Positions 7,143-21,435 of a DNA stretch of 33,187 bases are shown here, piece by piece. Source of the DNA: Bacteroidota bacterium (GTDB lineage: Bacteria > Bacteroidota > Bacteroidia > UKL13-3). Position 1 is the first letter of the stretch; each line of letters starts with the position of its first letter. A program made the translations under genes and the position numbers. A model generated the notes under the pieces. It ran no database searches and had not been told where the DNA came from. It saw nothing but the letters and a program-made list of their open reading frames with translations. The stretch covers positions 1 to 33,187 of the forward strand of contig CANGGG010000033.1 of assembly GCA_947453415.1 (NCBI GenBank). Direction: 5' to 3'.

Positions 7143-7214
7143 GGCAATCTAATTTGATGCGAAAATACATTGTTGAGTTGGAACAATAAAATGATTTTGG
7201 CTTTGAATATTTTC

Positions 7215-7259
7215 AAAAAAAAATAAGGGATAAAACAATTGCTTGTAATAACCCTTATT
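7215..7259 (-). terminator. Terminator after the cysteine-rich protein gene
   Basis: AATAAGGG (7222-7229) pairs with CCCTTATT (7252-7259), with an inner ACAA/TTGT pair in the loop. Read on the minus strand it is followed by a U tract from the A run at about 7215-7223. It separates the 7300-7812 gene from pyrD. Confidence 0.7.
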
Positions 7260-7299
7260 AAACTATAAAAATCTTTGAATTAACTAAATCTTTCAAATG

Positions 7300-7812
7300 T
7301 TATGGATTGCAATTGGCACTTCCAATACTTGCAATATAATCCTTTAATGCAGTTGGAAAGACCGTACTACCATTTACAACAATCGTTACATCACAACTTC
7401 CTGTGCCATTACAACTACAAGTTGCAGTTGAACAAGGAGTTGTTATAGTAATTGTGCATGAAGTACAGCCATTAGATGTACATTTATGTTCACAAGTAAC
7501 ACCTGCAACAAAATACAAATCACCGTTTGATTCTTGATTAAGGTTGAAGTACGTAAGAACTGAATTAACTTTTGAACTTAAATAGAAAGAATTGCTACTT
7601 CCTAAATAAACTATAGTTGAATTGGTAACAGTAGAACTATTATTCAACCAATATTTAATAATATTATTTAACTGTGAAGTAGTGTAACCGTTTTTTGGTG
7701 TCGTACTTGAAAAACATCCAACTTTTAAACTGTCCTGTGCCATTGATTTAATGACTGATATGTTTGTTACTAAACAAACAATCAAAGCTAACCTGAATAG
7801 TGTTTTTTTCAT
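7300..7812 (-). CDS. Secreted cysteine-rich protein of unknown function
   Basis: I do not recognise this 170-residue protein. It has a clear signal peptide (MKKTLFRLALIVCLVTNISV, cleavage near SMAQ at about 25). The mature part is rich in Ser, Thr and Asn and holds ten cysteines. Eight of them are packed in about 35 residues with spacing C-x3-C-x4-C-x2-C-x7-C-x4-C-x-C-x5-C, in the segments CEHKCTSNGCTSC and CSTATCSCNGTGSC. An even cysteine count in an exported protein suggests disulfides or a metal site. It is monocistronic with its own terminator, and divergent from the 7994 gene. Two TAnnTTTG-like boxes lie near 7884-7902 on the minus strand but lack good -33 partners. Confidence 0.7.
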   Translation of the reverse strand: MKKTLFRLALIVCLVTNISVIKSMAQDSLKVGCFSSTTPKNGYTTSQLNNIIKYWLNNSSTVTNSTIVYLGSSNSFYLSSKVNSVLTYFNLNQESNGDLYFVAGVTCEHKCTSNGCTSCTITITTPCSTATCSCNGTGSCDVTIVVNGSTVFPTALKDYIASIGSANCNP

Positions 7813-7993
7813 AATTTCATTATTTTTAAGTAAATCGAATGTAGTTTACATATTCAATTTAATACCAATAAAAAACATAATGACAAAAATATTACAAATT
7901 TAAATGGCTATTTTTTAGGTGAAACTTTAAAACATTTAGTAACAAAACCTTTAATTAAATCGTTCTTCGTGTTTCCAATCAAATTCATTGATA

Positions 7994-8731
7994 ATGAAAA
8001 AGGTGAAACTGTTTTTTGTTTTTCTGTTGTTATTATTGGGTGAAACCAAGGCACAACAAAGTAAATTTTTAAAAGGATTTGTGAAAAACGAAGAAGGGCA
8101 AACTTTGTCTTTTTCCATTATTTATAATTGCAATTCATTTCAAACTTTTTCAGCAAATCAATATGGAGCATTTGTGGTAGAGGCCAATATTGGCGATAGT
8201 TTGGTGGTTTCAAGAATGAATTATCAAACCGATACTTTTATTGTTTCTAAAGCCATTTATTTTGAAACTATAAAATTTGATATGGTGCTTAAAAGAAAAT
8301 CTATTTTATTAAAAGATGTAACCATTAATTACCGTCATAAATTTGACTCCATGGCAAAAATTTCAGCCGAAATGATGAAGCATGATGTATTGTTAAATAA
8401 CCATAAAAAGGTGGAGAATATTAGAGAAATGGCTAAACCAAAATTGATTTCAACGGGTGGAGTTGGTGTAGAAGGATTAATTTACAAAACTTGGTACAAA
8501 TTTTCACAAGCGGGAAAAAGCAATGAAAAACTTTTGAAGATTATCAGTATTTACAACGAATCAGTAAAGTTAGATGATAAATTGAGTATTGAATTTATTA
8601 TGAAAATTACTGGTGTGAACGAGAAAAAAGCTGAATATATAAAAACCAATTGCATCAAATCAAAACTGCTTGGAAATAGCAATTACAATGATTATGATTT
8701 GATTTTGGCTTTAAAAGCATGTGCGGAGTAA
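7994..8731 (+). CDS. Exported carboxypeptidase-regulatory-like domain protein
   Basis: A 245-residue exported protein. The ATG at 7994 gives a normal signal peptide ending KAQQ (about residue 20); an upstream in-frame TTG at 7988 adds only two residues. Residues about 25-100 resemble the CarboxypepD_reg-like (DUF4480) beta-sandwich of Bacteroidota: FLKGFVKNEEGQTLSFSIIY, then GAFVVEANIGDSLVVSRMNYQTDTFIV and a strand ending MVLKRKSILLKDVTI. The rest is a charged, mainly helical region (YRHKFDSMAKISAEMM onward) seen in relatives without known activity. Only two cysteines (43 and 216) precede a third near the C-terminus. It is followed 45 nt later by a lipoprotein gene. Confidence 0.75.
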   Translation: MKKVKLFFVFLLLLLGETKAQQSKFLKGFVKNEEGQTLSFSIIYNCNSFQTFSANQYGAFVVEANIGDSLVVSRMNYQTDTFIVSKAIYFETIKFDMVLKRKSILLKDVTINYRHKFDSMAKISAEMMKHDVLLNNHKKVENIREMAKPKLISTGGVGVEGLIYKTWYKFSQAGKSNEKLLKIISIYNESVKLDDKLSIEFIMKITGVNEKKAEYIKTNCIKSKLLGNSNYNDYDLILALKACAE

Positions 8732-8776: not shown

Positions 8777-9385
8777 ATGAAATTGCTCAAAATTATAATA
8801 TTATCTAGTATATTATTACTATTGTATACCTGCAAAAAAGAAAGTAATAATTTAATAAAAATTGAAACAAAAATAGATTCAGTAAATATTCAAAACGCCT
8901 ACTTAGAAAAGTGTGATAGCTTATCCAATTTTTTTTACCAAATGTTAGGCGAAAATAGCAACTATTTTATAACTACTAAAATAAATGAGGATATCAATAT
9001 TGATACTTTAAATAGTATTTTGAAAGAGTGGCCATATATTTCAATTACTTATAAAGAAAACTTTGACACTTCGTTTTTAAAGAAAAATTGTCCTGATTAC
9101 AAATTAAATGATTTTGCATTTTATCATTTTATTGAGTTGGTATCATATAAAATAGATTCAAATGCTTATGTATTTAACCAATCAGGTTTTTTAAGACAAG
9201 CTCCTTTCAATTATTGTGGAACTTTAATTGAAACAATAAATGGTAAAACTTTGGAGGTACGAGTTCCTAAAAATTTTACTGTGATTTATGATAAAGAAGT
9301 AATAATTGATTATGGTAAAAGATGCTCTGGCTCTGTTTGTCAAATAGGTTGTTCAGCATATTTAAAAAGAATAGAATATAAATAA
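8777..9385 (+). CDS. Putative lipoprotein, unknown function
   Basis: A 202-residue protein that I do not recognise. The N-terminus MKLLKIIILSSILLLLYTCK is a lipoprotein signal with the modified cysteine at Cys19 and the KKE tail common after Bacteroidota lipoprotein cysteines. The mature part is Asn/Ile/Lys-rich, with an aspartate/isoleucine stretch (DINIDTLNSILKEW). It ends with a small cysteine cluster, RCSGSVCQIGCSAYLKRIEYK, with spacing C-x4-C-x3-C; other cysteines lie near LEKCDSL, KKNCPDY and FNYCGTL. It shares with the nearby 7300-7812 protein the trait of exported clustered cysteines, but no sequence similarity is evident. Confidence 0.65.
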   Translation: MKLLKIIILSSILLLLYTCKKESNNLIKIETKIDSVNIQNAYLEKCDSLSNFFYQMLGENSNYFITTKINEDINIDTLNSILKEWPYISITYKENFDTSFLKKNCPDYKLNDFAFYHFIELVSYKIDSNAYVFNQSGFLRQAPFNYCGTLIETINGKTLEVRVPKNFTVIYDKEVIIDYGKRCSGSVCQIGCSAYLKRIEYK

Positions 9386-9771: not shown

Positions 9772-10479
9772 TTACATTCCTAAAATAAAAATTGTAGGTT
9801 TTTTATGCAAATCAATTTTTTGTTTAGCCCAATCTTTGATGGTTTTAGTTTGAATCAATTCATCTTCGGCAGAAATATTGCATGCAATGCATAATAAAAT
9901 ATTGGGATTACAGTTCTTTATAATATCATCAAATAAATGGTTGTTCCTGTATGGAGTTTCCATAAATATTTGAGCTTGTTGTTTACTAGTTAATTCACGT
10001 TCTAACTCTTTTATACGTTTCACTCTTAAAATTTTATCAATGGGTAAATAACCTGTAAAAGCAAAATTTTGTCCGCTGAATCCACTTGCCATTAATGCCA
10101 TAAAAATAGAAGAAGAACCAGGCAAAGGAATTACATTTATATTTTTTTGATGTGCCAAAGCTACTAATTGAAATCCTGGATCGGCTACACAAGGAAGTCC
10201 GGCATCGCTTATTATTCCTGCATCTTGTTCATTTTCTAAAGCTTTTAAAAGTTCAGAATAAGTTTTAGATTCTGTATGTTCATTTAAAATAAATATTTGT
10301 AAATCATTTTGAGGAGTAGCCAATTGCAATTTTTTTATTAAAGCCCTGGCTTCTTTTTCACTCTCCACCACAAAATTTTTTAAATGGTGGCTCATTCTTT
10401 TCACCATTTCGGGTAAAAAATCATTTTGGCTGTCTTTTGCCAAAAAATTGGGAATTAAGTATAATTTTCCGTACTTCAT
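9772..10479 (-). CDS. RsmI-like tetrapyrrole-methylase-fold SAM methyltransferase
   Basis: A 235-residue TP-methylase fold enzyme. SDAGLPCVADPG (91-102) is the RsmI-type signature, followed by PLPGSSSIFMALMASGFSGQNFAFTGYLP and METPYRNNHL. RsmI makes the 2'-O-methyl of C1402 in 16S rRNA. This protein is shorter than E. coli RsmI (about 286) and lacks its C-terminal extension, and the N-terminus reads KLYLIPNFL where RsmI has a glycine-rich LY-V-TPIGN. Bacteroidota often carry both RsmI and such a divergent paralogue. I therefore call it RsmI-like and not RsmI. It is divergent from the ppiD-like gene. Confidence 0.85.
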   Translation of the reverse strand: MKYGKLYLIPNFLAKDSQNDFLPEMVKRMSHHLKNFVVESEKEARALIKKLQLATPQNDLQIFILNEHTESKTYSELLKALENEQDAGIISDAGLPCVADPGFQLVALAHQKNINVIPLPGSSSIFMALMASGFSGQNFAFTGYLPIDKILRVKRIKELERELTSKQQAQIFMETPYRNNHLFDDIIKNCNPNILLCIACNISAEDELIQTKTIKDWAKQKIDLHKKPTIFILGM

Positions 10480-10535
10480 TTTTATGCTATTTTGTTAAAT
10501 GCCTGATATTATTACAAGTGCGAAAATAAATAACA

Positions 10536-10567
10536 TTTGACTTATATAGTCATAGCGCTTATTTTTG
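10536..10567 (+). promoter_or_regulatory. Bacteroidota-type promoter of the PpiD-like gene
   Basis: TTTG (10536-10539), a 20-nt spacer and TATTTTTG (10560-10567) match the phylum consensus. Transcription would begin near 10571, 17 nt before the ATG at 10588. Confidence 0.7.
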
Positions 10568-10587
10568 CCACTCTTTAAAAAAACCGT

Positions 10588-12699
10588 ATGGCAATATTAA
10601 CTAAAATTAGAAACAGAAGTGGCATAGCAATAGGATTTGTTGGATTAGCCTTAGTATTATTCCTTGTTTCCGATGCTTTAAGCAGTGGAAATAGCATTTT
10701 TAATTCAAATGCAAACAATGTAGGACAAATAGATGGCGATGCAATATCGTACAAACAATTTGAAGCTGAAGTTGCTAAACAAGAAGCACAGTATTTAGAA
10801 CGTAGTCAAGGACAACCGCTTGATGACAACACAAGACAACAAGTGAGAGAACAGGCTTGGAATGTATTGGTTCAAGAAGGATTAATGATTAAAGAATATG
10901 CCGATTTAGGAATTACTTTAACAAACGAAGAATTAACAGATTTATTTGTAGGTGATAACATTCATCCACAAGTTAAACAATCGTTTACTGATCCTAAGAC
11001 TGGATATTTTGATAAAAGTGTGGTTATTCAAAACTTAAAACAAATCAATGAAAAAGGTGATGAGAAAACTAAAAAGCAATTACGCACTTTTGAAGATTTT
11101 TTATTACAAGATGGTTTAAACAAAAAATACAGTTCTTTAGTTAAAAAAGGTGTTTATACTACAAACTTAGATGCTAAAAAATTATATGAAGGAAGATCAA
11201 GAACTGCAGAAATGAATTTTGTAGTGATGCCTTTTTCTACAGTTGCTGATTCAGCAGTTAAAGTAGAAGAATCTGATTTGAAATCATATTTCAATAAAAA
11301 TCAAAACAAATATAAGTCGAAAGAAAACAGTCGTAAAATTGATTTTATCGTTTATAACTTTGCACCAAGTAGTGAAGATACAACTGAAATGATGAAATGG
11401 GTTGCTGACCAAATGAGTTTATTTGCACAAGCAAAAAATGATACACAATATGTAGATCAAAACAGCGAAGTAAAATTTGATGCAAAACCTCGTTCTCGCA
11501 AAGATTATCCTGAAGATTTAGTTGGAAGATTATTTTCTGATTCAATTGGAAGTATTGTTGGACCAATATTTAAAGATAACAAATACCAAATATATAAAGT
11601 TAGTGGTGTAAAAAATGATACTACCGTATTTATGCGTGCTAGTCATATATTATTTAAAGTAGAAGGAACAACAGCATTAGATACTGCAAATAGTAAAATT
11701 AAGGCAGAAGAAATTTTAGCTCAAATTAAAAAAGGTGGTGATTTTGCAATGATGGCTGCACAATACGGAACTGATGGAACAAAAGACAAAGGAGGCGATT
11801 TAGGTTGGTTCCAAGATGGTCAAATGGTTCCTGAATTCAATAAATTTTGCAAAGCAGGAAACAAAGGTGATGTTGGAATTGTAAAAACTCAATTTGGATG
11901 GCATATTGTTAAAATTACAGAAAACAAATCGAGCAAGTTAGTAACTGCAGGATTAGTAGAACGTACTTTTAAAGCAAGCGATAAAACGGTAGGATTTGCA
12001 TTTAACGAAGCAAGTCAATTTGCTGCATCAAGTCGCAATAATGCTGACTTTGAAGCTAATGCTAAAACTAAAAAGTTAGAGATTAAAACGGCAGAAATGG
12101 TGAGAGAAAACGATAACTTTTTACCAGGTTATTCTGATGCTCGAGAAGCTGTAAGATGGGCTTTTAATGCTAAAGTTGGCGATATTAGTGAAGTAGTTAC
12201 AGTTGGCGACAAACACATGATTATATCGTTGAAAGATATTCGTGAAAAAGGAAAATCAAGTTTTGAAGAAGCAAGAGGTAAAGCCGAAAATGATTATAGA
12301 AAAGAGAAAAAAGCAGAACAGTTATTAGCTAAAATGAAAGAAGCAGTTGACGGTGGCGCTATAACTTTAGATGCATTAAGTAAAAAATTAAACTTAACAG
12401 TAACTCCAGTTGGAAGCCAAAATTTTGAAAACACAGGAATTGCATATGTTGGTCAAGATAATTCATTTGTAGGTGCGGTTTTAGGTACTGCTCCCAATAA
12501 ATTTGTTTCTTCATTTAAAGGTGATGGTGGAATTTATGCATTCCAAGTAAATAAATTTACTGAGGCTCCAGCAATTACTGATTACTCATCATTCAAAGCA
12601 GAGTTAAAGCAACCATTATCTCAAAAAGTAGAATATGGTTATATGGAAACTTTAAAAGATATTCATAAAGTAACCGATTTGCGTTACAAGTTTTACTAG
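10588..12699 (+). CDS. PpiD/SurA-type peptidyl-prolyl isomerase, membrane-anchored
   Basis: A 703-residue periplasmic chaperone that assists folding of outer-membrane and exported proteins. An N-terminal anchor helix (about 12-30, GIAIGFVGLALVLFLVSDAL) follows a short basic cytoplasmic start, as in PpiD. A SurA_N-like helical region contains QFEAEVAKQEAQYLERSQGQ. A parvulin domain spans about 350-447: RASHILFKVEG, AAQYGTDGTKDKGGDLGWF, MVPEF and FGWHIVKITE. A second, weaker parvulin-like segment lies near 510-560 (REAVRWAFNAKVGDISEVV). Length is slightly above E. coli PpiD (623), normal for Bacteroidota. The gene is monocistronic, with its own promoter and a downstream repeat plus terminator. 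Confidence 0.93.
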   Translation: MAILTKIRNRSGIAIGFVGLALVLFLVSDALSSGNSIFNSNANNVGQIDGDAISYKQFEAEVAKQEAQYLERSQGQPLDDNTRQQVREQAWNVLVQEGLMIKEYADLGITLTNEELTDLFVGDNIHPQVKQSFTDPKTGYFDKSVVIQNLKQINEKGDEKTKKQLRTFEDFLLQDGLNKKYSSLVKKGVYTTNLDAKKLYEGRSRTAEMNFVVMPFSTVADSAVKVEESDLKSYFNKNQNKYKSKENSRKIDFIVYNFAPSSEDTTEMMKWVADQMSLFAQAKNDTQYVDQNSEVKFDAKPRSRKDYPEDLVGRLFSDSIGSIVGPIFKDNKYQIYKVSGVKNDTTVFMRASHILFKVEGTTALDTANSKIKAEEILAQIKKGGDFAMMAAQYGTDGTKDKGGDLGWFQDGQMVPEFNKFCKAGNKGDVGIVKTQFGWHIVKITENKSSKLVTAGLVERTFKASDKTVGFAFNEASQFAASSRNNADFEANAKTKKLEIKTAEMVRENDNFLPGYSDAREAVRWAFNAKVGDISEVVTVGDKHMIISLKDIREKGKSSFEEARGKAENDYRKEKKAEQLLAKMKEAVDGGAITLDALSKKLNLTVTPVGSQNFENTGIAYVGQDNSFVGAVLGTAPNKFVSSFKGDGGIYAFQVNKFTEAPAITDYSSFKAELKQPLSQKVEYGYMETLKDIHKVTDLRYKFY

Positions 12700-19939: not shown

Positions 19940-20938
19940 TTGAGCAAAGCTATTGTTTTTTATAGGCTTCCTGGAACTAATGAAATAGTAAAAAGAGAAG
20001 GTAAAATTAATAGCCAACTTGTGCCCATTGATTTAATTTCCGAATCAGAAAAAGATATTTTTTATATTTCTCCTTTCAATGCTGGAAGCAATGCTTTTGC
20101 CTGTGTTTTAGATAAAGAAATAAATAAGTTTGAAGTTATTTCATATCAACGAAACAAAAAAAATAAGTATGATTCTGAAACAGATTTTATTCAAAAAGTA
20201 AATGCTGCAATACTTGAAATGAAGCAATTTCAACAAATAAGTAAAGTAGTATTAGCAAGATGTAAAGAGTTTAAAATAGCAGAAGAAATAGATGTCAATG
20301 CCTATTTTTTGAATTTGTGTTTAAGTTACCCCAATGCTTTTGTATACGCAGTTTCAAGTAGCATTACTGGTACATGGATTGCCGCCACCCCAGAACTGCT
20401 TTTAAAAGAAACGAAACAGGAATTAGAAACTACCGCAATTGCTGGAACAAAGTTATTTGATAATGATTTAGCATGGGGCGAAAAAGAAAAAGATGAACAC
20501 CATCAAGTAGAATTATTTATTGATAATTTAATTCAAAAACATCAACTCAAATTAATCAATAAAGATGGTCCAAAAAGCATTGTTTCAGGACATCTTTTTC
20601 ATCTTGCTAGTTATTATAAAATATCTAATAAAAAAGGAATATTAGATTCATTTTTAAAAGAGTTGAATCCAACACCCGCAGTTGGTGGATTACCAAGCAA
20701 AAATGCAATTGATTTTATAACTAAAAACGAGCATTTAGACCGTAAATTTTACGCTGGATTTGTGGGAATAAAGTCTAATAATTTAACACAACTTTATGTA
20801 AATATTCGTTGCATGGAAATATTTAAAAATCATGTGCATGCTTATGCTGGATGTGGGATTACAGTTCAATCAAATGCTGAAAGTGAATGGACAGAAACTG
20901 AACAAAAATTACAAACTGTTTTGAAATTTTTATCGTAA
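19940..20938 (+). CDS. menF: Isochorismate synthase
   Basis: A 332-residue chorismate-binding enzyme converting chorismate to isochorismate, the first step of menaquinone synthesis. Motifs in order are SKVVLARCKEF, GTWIAATPELLL, TTAIAGTKLF, LNPTPAVGGLPSKNA, the Mg- and substrate-binding HLDRKFYAGFVG, and AYAGCGITVQSNAESEWTETEQK. It is shorter at the N-terminus than E. coli MenF/EntC, which is common in Bacteroidota. The start is TTG at 19940, 11 nt after the hotdog gene, and no nearby ATG exists in frame. In many relatives menD comes next, but here the gene runs 9 nt into convergent tadA. A siderophore role (EntC-like) is possible but no partner genes are present. Confidence 0.93.
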   Translation: MSKAIVFYRLPGTNEIVKREGKINSQLVPIDLISESEKDIFYISPFNAGSNAFACVLDKEINKFEVISYQRNKKNKYDSETDFIQKVNAAILEMKQFQQISKVVLARCKEFKIAEEIDVNAYFLNLCLSYPNAFVYAVSSSITGTWIAATPELLLKETKQELETTAIAGTKLFDNDLAWGEKEKDEHHQVELFIDNLIQKHQLKLINKDGPKSIVSGHLFHLASYYKISNKKGILDSFLKELNPTPAVGGLPSKNAIDFITKNEHLDRKFYAGFVGIKSNNLTQLYVNIRCMEIFKNHVHAYAGCGITVQSNAESEWTETEQKLQTVLKFLS

Positions 20939-21373
20939 ATTTTTAAAAAATAATTTCATTAATTCAGCTGCTTCATTTGCTAAAATTCCTGACTGTATTT
21001 TTGTTTTAGGATGAAGTTTTACCATTGCATTTTCAAAGCCTCTTTTTTCATCTTTTGCGGCAAAAACTACACGTTCAAACTGTGCCCAAAATATTGCGCC
21101 AGCACACATTATACAAGGTTCTAAAGAAATGTAAATAGTACAATCGTTCAAATATTTTGCTCCTAAATAATTTGCAGCAGCAGTAATAGCTTGCATTTCG
21201 GCATGAGCAGTTACATCATTTAATTGCTCAGTTAAATTATGTCCTTTTCCTATAATTTGATTGTTACTTACCACTACACAACCAACAGGTACTTCACCCA
21301 TGTCAAAGGCTTTTTGAGCTTCAATTAAGGCTTGCTTCATAAAATACTCATCGGTAAAAAATATATCTTCCAT
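20930..21373 (-). CDS. tadA: tRNA-specific adenosine deaminase
   Basis: Deaminates A34 of tRNA-Arg(ACG) to inosine, needed to read CGN codons. A 147-residue zinc deaminase with HAEMQ (His57 ligand, Glu59 proton shuttle) and EPCIMCAGA (Cys87 and Cys90 ligands), plus GEVPVGCVVV and GKGHNL near the N-terminus as in TadA. The line after the PCxxC motif reads VVFAAKDEKRGFENA, where many TadA proteins have FGA-x-D-x-K-x-G. Guanine deaminase shares the fold but usually lacks GEVPVGAV, so TadA is favoured. The last 9 nt overlap the 3' end of menF on the other strand. Confidence 0.93.
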   Translation of the reverse strand: MEDIFFTDEYFMKQALIEAQKAFDMGEVPVGCVVVSNNQIIGKGHNLTEQLNDVTAHAEMQAITAAANYLGAKYLNDCTIYISLEPCIMCAGAIFWAQFERVVFAAKDEKRGFENAMVKLHPKTKIQSGILANEAAELMKLFFKNLR

Positions 21374-21435
21374 ATTTCAATATTAATAATAATAGTTATG
21401 ATGCCATTTTATTCAAGTAATAAAATGAAAAAAGT

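Follow-up and report, generated by a model that had tools for sequence, protein, structure and literature searches.

Transporters of the VIT family (PF01988) have Fe2+ and Mn2+ as substrates, and these ions are usually bound through oxygen and nitrogen ligands. For MbfA, two reports describe a membrane domain that resembles vacuolar iron transporters and a function in iron efflux in alpha-proteobacteria (PMC7762939; PMC4902296). MbfA and other VIT-family iron exporters are similar to the system described here by context only, namely by a VIT gene that adjoins the genes of six-cysteine relatives of the protein under study, P0001. Whereas MbfA combines a cytoplasmic ferritin-like domain and a VIT-like domain in one chain, the candidate partner of the VIT transporter is here a separate exported protein. 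In the titles and abstract openings of the literature listed, no mention was found of an accessory protein that serves VIT-type metal export from outside the cytoplasm. The six-cysteine family, which belongs to Bacteroidota, is not catalogued in the libraries searched and is common in the taxonomic family to which the analysed DNA belongs, its novelty being judged from Pfam, NCBIfam, PHROGs, PDB, and the literature just mentioned. An unexplained cysteine-rich open reading frame (ORF) can in this way be placed as a branch of a common family with a testable VIT metal-transporter context.

The structural gene for P0001 is located at positions 7300 to 7812 on the minus strand of the window (the whole stretch of 33,187 nucleotides that was analysed) and was delimited by ORF translation, its ATG start, and the alignment of relatives. 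It encodes a secreted protein of 170 amino acids with a signal peptide that comprises residues 1–25 (7738 to 7812, minus strand), and if cleavage occurs after residue 25, a site placed by eye in the sequence, the mature chain has about 145 residues. The initial annotation had proposed a clean signal peptide, a terminator belonging to this gene, and ten cysteines in the mature chain; we agree by eye with the first, RNA folding bears out the second, and ten is also the number counted in the translation. The intrinsic terminator (7215 to 7259, minus strand) consists of an 8-bp stem and a U run about 40 bases past the stop codon, and the 81-base RNA piece containing it folds with -17.2 kcal/mol (z -3.37; 1 of 200 shuffles equally good). 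A consensus terminator scan, which permits only loops of 3–8, found none. Past the P0001 gene, the minus strand next encodes a dihydroorotate dehydrogenase (PF01180, E 4.4e-82), and the upstream neighbor, at 7988, is divergently oriented. Because of its own terminator behind the stop codon and the divergent upstream neighbor, the P0001 gene looks monocistronic. On the plus strand, at 8777 to 9385, the window encodes a lipoprotein-like protein with the cysteine-rich tail CSGSVCQIGC, which has no Pfam match above cut-off and no visible kinship to P0001.

Cysteines are present in P0001 at positions 13 (inside the signal peptide), 33, 107, 111, 116, 119, 127, 132, 134, 140, and 168. Eight of them form a block at residues 107–140 (7393 to 7494, minus strand), which was recognized in the translation, the alignment, a pattern scan, and the structural model, and the spacing reported for it, C-x3-C-x4-C-x2-C-x7-C-x4-C-x-C-x5-C, is exact in the translation. 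Within this block C111-x4-C116-x2-C119-x12-C132-x-C134-x5-C140 corresponds to the core of the family described below, and C107 and C127 constitute an extra pair. Across the 61,903 residues of the window's six-frame translation, a relaxed version of the core pattern occurs only once, inside the P0001 gene. Outside the block, C33 (codon at 7714 to 7716, minus strand) and C168 (codon at 7309 to 7311, minus strand) are present in every one of the five close rows of the alignment and are candidate partners of each other.

Searches of family libraries with P0001 yielded no family at E ≤ 1 in Pfam-A, EGF-like domains included, and in NCBIfam a score of 12.7 bits, where the cut-off is 136. None of the five close members rose above the Pfam gathering cut-off, and for the relatives tested all Pfam and NCBIfam rows were below cut-off. 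The view that this cysteine spacing belongs to no known family is therefore sustained by Pfam and NCBIfam, where nothing surpassed a cut-off, and neither profile searches nor structure prediction gave a clear match to a known domain. Weak rows below cut-off, YehD (E 0.078) and RP854 (E 0.017, for one copy of the protein at locus L029), were rejected, as was XisI for locus L048 (E 0.0019, 19 bits against a cut-off of 25). In PHROGs, which has no curated cut-off, phrog_22666 (virion structural protein) was found for two of the five close members (best E 0.011). Among PDB sequences there was none at E ≤ 10 for P0001 or for the profile of A8, the alignment of the six-cysteine family, and the A2 profile gave three at E 1.6–2.2. 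With P0001, tblastn gave no match among phages or among plasmids, and with L055 there was none in plasmids; in viral contigs no match was confirmed.

The initial annotation had considered P0001 an orphan, a label that does not hold, since of the 64 genomes in the window's taxonomic family 5 contain close relatives and 46 have matches to a larger protein family. When 97 genomes were searched with the P0001 protein, matches were obtained in five, the own genome counted, and a profile search of the 64 family genomes detected close relatives in five, again including the own genome, distributed over 4 of 14 genera. One close relative, from another genome of the window's genus, is a copy with 99 % identity, and a scan of contigs with P0001 found only the 99 % copy (CAIUQQ010000169.1, from an uncultured Bacteroidetes MAG); the other three have 31–33 % identity in the alignment. 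Over the five close rows, two of which are 99 % alike, 8 of the 10 mature cysteines are invariant, and the cysteines are therefore not lost in homologues at 31–33 % identity. The two exceptions are C116, which lies at a shifted position in three rows, and C134, which is replaced by R in L005. The comparison of L003 with L005 gave dN 0.335 and dS 1.524, where dS is high and other pairs were saturated or not computable; dN being lower than dS, this points to purifying selection. All-against-all blastp of the close-group stretches that were read revealed no common neighbor gene besides the family gene itself; one flank is unseen at L082 and L083, where the contig starts no more than about 450 bases from the gene. 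The only other match, a distant one, linked a gene of L083 to window positions 20930 to 21376, far from P0001.

Profile searches across the class and the phylum (395 genomes each) matched four genomes, one of them later rejected, and two genomes, respectively, and added L011 (genome G264) and L013 (G216) as counterparts with the eight-cysteine block. Both resemble P0001 in having counterparts of C107 and C127 in this block, but they differ from it in a start that by eye looks lipoprotein-like, in having no C33/C168 pair, and in their neighbor genes, and L011 also has no equivalent of C116. A trimmed profile matched 20 of 395 genomes class-wide at E 0.05 and added L028 and L029, the proteins of which possess no more than the six-cysteine core. 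From three L028/L029 proteins a profile was then made that matched 6 of 295 genomes and led to five new loci, among them L050, a second family member inside the window's own genome. The A7 profile, constructed from eight six-cysteine proteins, none of them from the close group, matched 46 of the 64 genomes and 9 of the 14 genera of the window's family. It also retrieved the close member L004 at E 5.9e-7, and the other four of the five close members were missed at E 0.001. P0001-type profiles matched 1 of 13 genomes in the family of G264 and 1 of 22 in its order. For the family of G216 they gave 2 matching genomes out of 118, including the rejected L015. As the wide searches drew 395 (in one case 295) genomes from larger groups and scoring was confined to the top candidates of a loose prescreen, the counts outside the window's family are lower bounds. 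Several candidates were rejected: L015 (G797, E 0.003) has an internal stop in a stretch that reads by eye as glutamate synthase, L012 (G329, E 6.3e-4) matched in the non-cysteine half only and lies opposite a long minus-strand ORF, and L022–L024 (E 0.003–0.007) and the 15 loci L030–L044 (E 0.006–0.05, judged from the table) were also discarded.

The six-cysteine proteins have lengths of about 157–182 amino acids and an export signal by eye. All 34 rows of A8 fit the pattern C-x4-C-x2-C-x(5-13)-C-x-C-x(4-12)-C, and P0001 also fits it via C111, C116, C119, C132, C134, and C140. From the eight-cysteine side L003, L004, and L013 fit the relaxed core pattern whereas L005 and L011 do not. Of the 45 family loci read, 43 have the core pattern; in L102 (G048) the last core cysteine is replaced by F, and L103, which does not fit, is cut by a contig end. 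Two further A7 matches, a partial one in G012 (E 2.5e-4) and a second one in G040 (E 2.5e-6), were left out of the reading of loci. L029 (G392) carries tandem six-cysteine copies at 1336 to 1848 and 1982 to 2530 and no VIT gene in the locus. L095 (G029) has a six-cysteine gene with an internal TAG, perhaps a pseudogene, and the VIT gene is still upstream of it.

When profiles from the eight-cysteine side were compared with profiles from the six-cysteine side by hhalign, different profile pairs gave 96.8 % (E 2.5e-10), 93.2 % (E 3e-7), 95.5 % (E 1.4e-8, 135 columns), and 96.9 % (E 1.4e-10). The close group compared with A7 gave 94.0 %, and the control with reversed A7 0.4 %. With four six-cysteine rows only, the close group reached 2.2 % and a score of 20.3, and shuffled controls gave maximal scores of 19.2 (100 column shuffles) and 20.7 (100 shuffles keeping the cysteine columns); the four-row comparison being weak, the link between the close group and the six-cysteine proteins needs the intermediates and the deeper alignment. 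AlphaFold models were built separately for P0001 (6 rows from the eight-cysteine side; mean pLDDT 79.2, pTM 0.72) and for its relative from the same genome (34 other rows; mean pLDDT 88.6, pTM 0.79). Compared by order of elements only, both show strands, a helix, eight strands, and a C-terminal helix, and in the model of P0001 the cysteine block is located in the last four strands (107–114, 118–125, 129–135, and 139–146). Homology of P0001 to the six-cysteine family is well supported. Export signal by eye, core pattern, predicted order of elements, and length are shared; P0001 differs from the family in the added C107/C127 and C33/C168, in having no VIT neighbor, and in a last core spacing that is shorter (x5). 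It appears to be a divergent branch of the six-cysteine family with two added cysteine pairs. Foldseek searches with both models against PDB (best E 0.32 and 0.61) and with the window model against BFVD, and VIA-align (best Z 3.7 with rmsd 4.5 over 76 aligned residues, and 4.2 with rmsd 2.3 over 58), returned no convincing match, which does not establish a new fold; the similarities were weak and scattered, some of them to cystatin-like helix-on-sheet folds.

Equivalents of C107 and C127 are present in L011, in L013, and throughout the close group, whereas none of the 34 six-cysteine rows has a cysteine at either of these positions. The close group has both C33 and C168, and neither counterpart was seen in L011 and L013. 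The added cysteines of P0001 were thus gained in pairs, as would be left by extra disulfides, and from this co-occurrence we infer that C107/C127 and C33/C168 may be disulfide bonds. The pairing scheme is not strict across relatives, exceptions being L005 with R at the position of C134 and L011 without an equivalent of C116.

In 35 of 45 genomes, a gene of the VIT family is located upstream of the six-cysteine gene in the same orientation, that is, in 26 of the 30 loci L051–L080 and in 9 of 15 further A7-matched loci; G012, the 46th genome, is a weak match and outside this count. With start codons chosen by script, the six-cysteine gene begins at most 33 bases from the VIT stop codon in 27 of these 35 cases and 118–382 bases from it in the other 8. 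Pfam VIT1 was found in the three neighbors tested with E values from 1.8e-67 (in the window's own genome) to 3.1e-72. By genus, the two genes adjoin in 10/10 genomes of g1, 15/18 of g3, 4/4 of g7, 1/1 of g6, 2/2 of g9, 2/2 of g11, 1/6 of g2, and 0/2 of g10, so that at least one pair is present in seven of the eight genera with fetched loci. In 22 pair-carrying loci, which were chosen for the pair, longer neighbor genes are common only within three groups of genera (g3 with g7; g2 with g9 and g11; g1), and the neighbor matches that extend beyond these groups involve short ORFs, mostly opposite the VIT gene. In the remaining 10 of the 45 genomes a VIT gene is absent from the six-cysteine locus as read, G024 and G018 having been re-read with wider flanks. 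Five of the six g2 genes belong to this class, and in g2 loci L096, L097, L099, and L100 a similar gene encoding about 430 amino acids follows the six-cysteine gene in the same orientation. No VIT gene was found beside L028, L029, and L048, which come from other taxonomic families, nor in the window or the close-group stretches (L081–L084), where L082 and L083 are cut on one side by a contig end. As none was found near the close group, a VIT partnership can be argued from the relatives only, and as VIT adjacency is common but not universal in the family, P0001 was filed as a divergent paralogue and not as a VIT partner.

We propose that P0001 may be a small alpha/beta binding module, periplasmic or extracellular and locked by disulfides, which two more cysteine pairs (C107/C127 and C33/C168) would make more heavily cross-linked than its relatives. 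The usual six-cysteine member would most likely be the extracytoplasmic partner of its VIT transporter, a partnership suggested by gene order, and might bind the exported metal ion or gate or shield the transporter. P0001, with its own terminator, would be a stand-alone paralogue that acts outside a VIT operon, probably on a ligand related to that of its relatives. We give this reading as a whole an even chance of being right. From the initial suggestion of a disulfide-rich secreted module it retains secretion (judged by eye) and the conserved cysteines, but P0001 is a branch of the six-cysteine family and not a stand-alone orphan; the metal-related role suggested at the same time receives indirect support from the VIT genes that adjoin the six-cysteine relatives, but no VIT gene is present at the window locus. 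For the effector role, which was also suggested, no result obtained here speaks. A more specific version, which we regard as tentative and somewhat doubtful, is a two-part system of Bacteroidota in which VIT exports Fe2+ or Mn2+ and the six-cysteine partner receives, shields, or senses the ion, P0001 being an offshoot with extra disulfides that was recruited away. If the partnership is true, the six-cysteine protein would be an accessory that assists VIT-type metal export from outside the cytoplasm.

Other explanations would account for parts of these data. The cysteines might themselves hold Zn, Cu, or Fe as thiolates outside the cytoplasm, with the CxxC, the CxC, and the single cysteines of the core as ligands of a metal-binding or metal-storing protein, and the VIT neighbor of the relatives would then export or buffer that metal. 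The invariance of six cysteines in a CxxC/CxC arrangement in 34 of 34 rows and the 35 VIT neighbors in 45 genomes are consistent with this, as is the participation of MbfA in alpha-proteobacterial iron efflux with a VIT-like membrane domain (PMC7762939; PMC4902296). It is nevertheless an unlikely explanation, as the protein is exported to a usually oxidising compartment, the extra cysteines come in pairs, which suits disulfides, and the window copy has no VIT neighbor; the oxygen and nitrogen ligands usual for VIT substrates also argue against thiolates.

Alternatively, the fold might be a plain structural disulfide module with a non-metal role, for example a protein-binding or inhibitor domain at the surface or in the periplasm, and the adjacency to VIT would be historical. 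Such a role would agree with the partly cystatin-like character of the weak fold similarities (best Z 3.7 and 4.2), with the close group sharing no neighbors in the stretches read, and with the 10 of 45 six-cysteine genes that have no VIT in the locus, but the pairing with VIT is found in seven of the eight genera whose loci were read, while neighbors change between the genus groups, and we consider a purely structural role improbable. That P0001 is a functionless ORF rich in cysteine by chance might be supposed from its presence in only 5 of 64 family genomes; this is contradicted by the conservation of cysteines at 31–33 % identity and by dN being below dS for L003 and L005, and the export signal (by eye) and the terminator also speak against it, so that we attach practically no probability to it. 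The disulfide-locked binding module, with a VIT partnership in its relatives, is the reading that we retain for P0001.

The surroundings of the gene were also compared with locus L084 of the same-genus genome G004. Window positions 7200 to 8400, which include the P0001 gene, are 99.3–100 % identical to it, and the surrounding 300-base bins show 91.0–97.7 % identity, which suggests that this segment may be a tract of recent exchange. A second stretch with 98.7–100 % identity to L084 extends from 10200 to 12000 and covers the start of the ORF at 10588.
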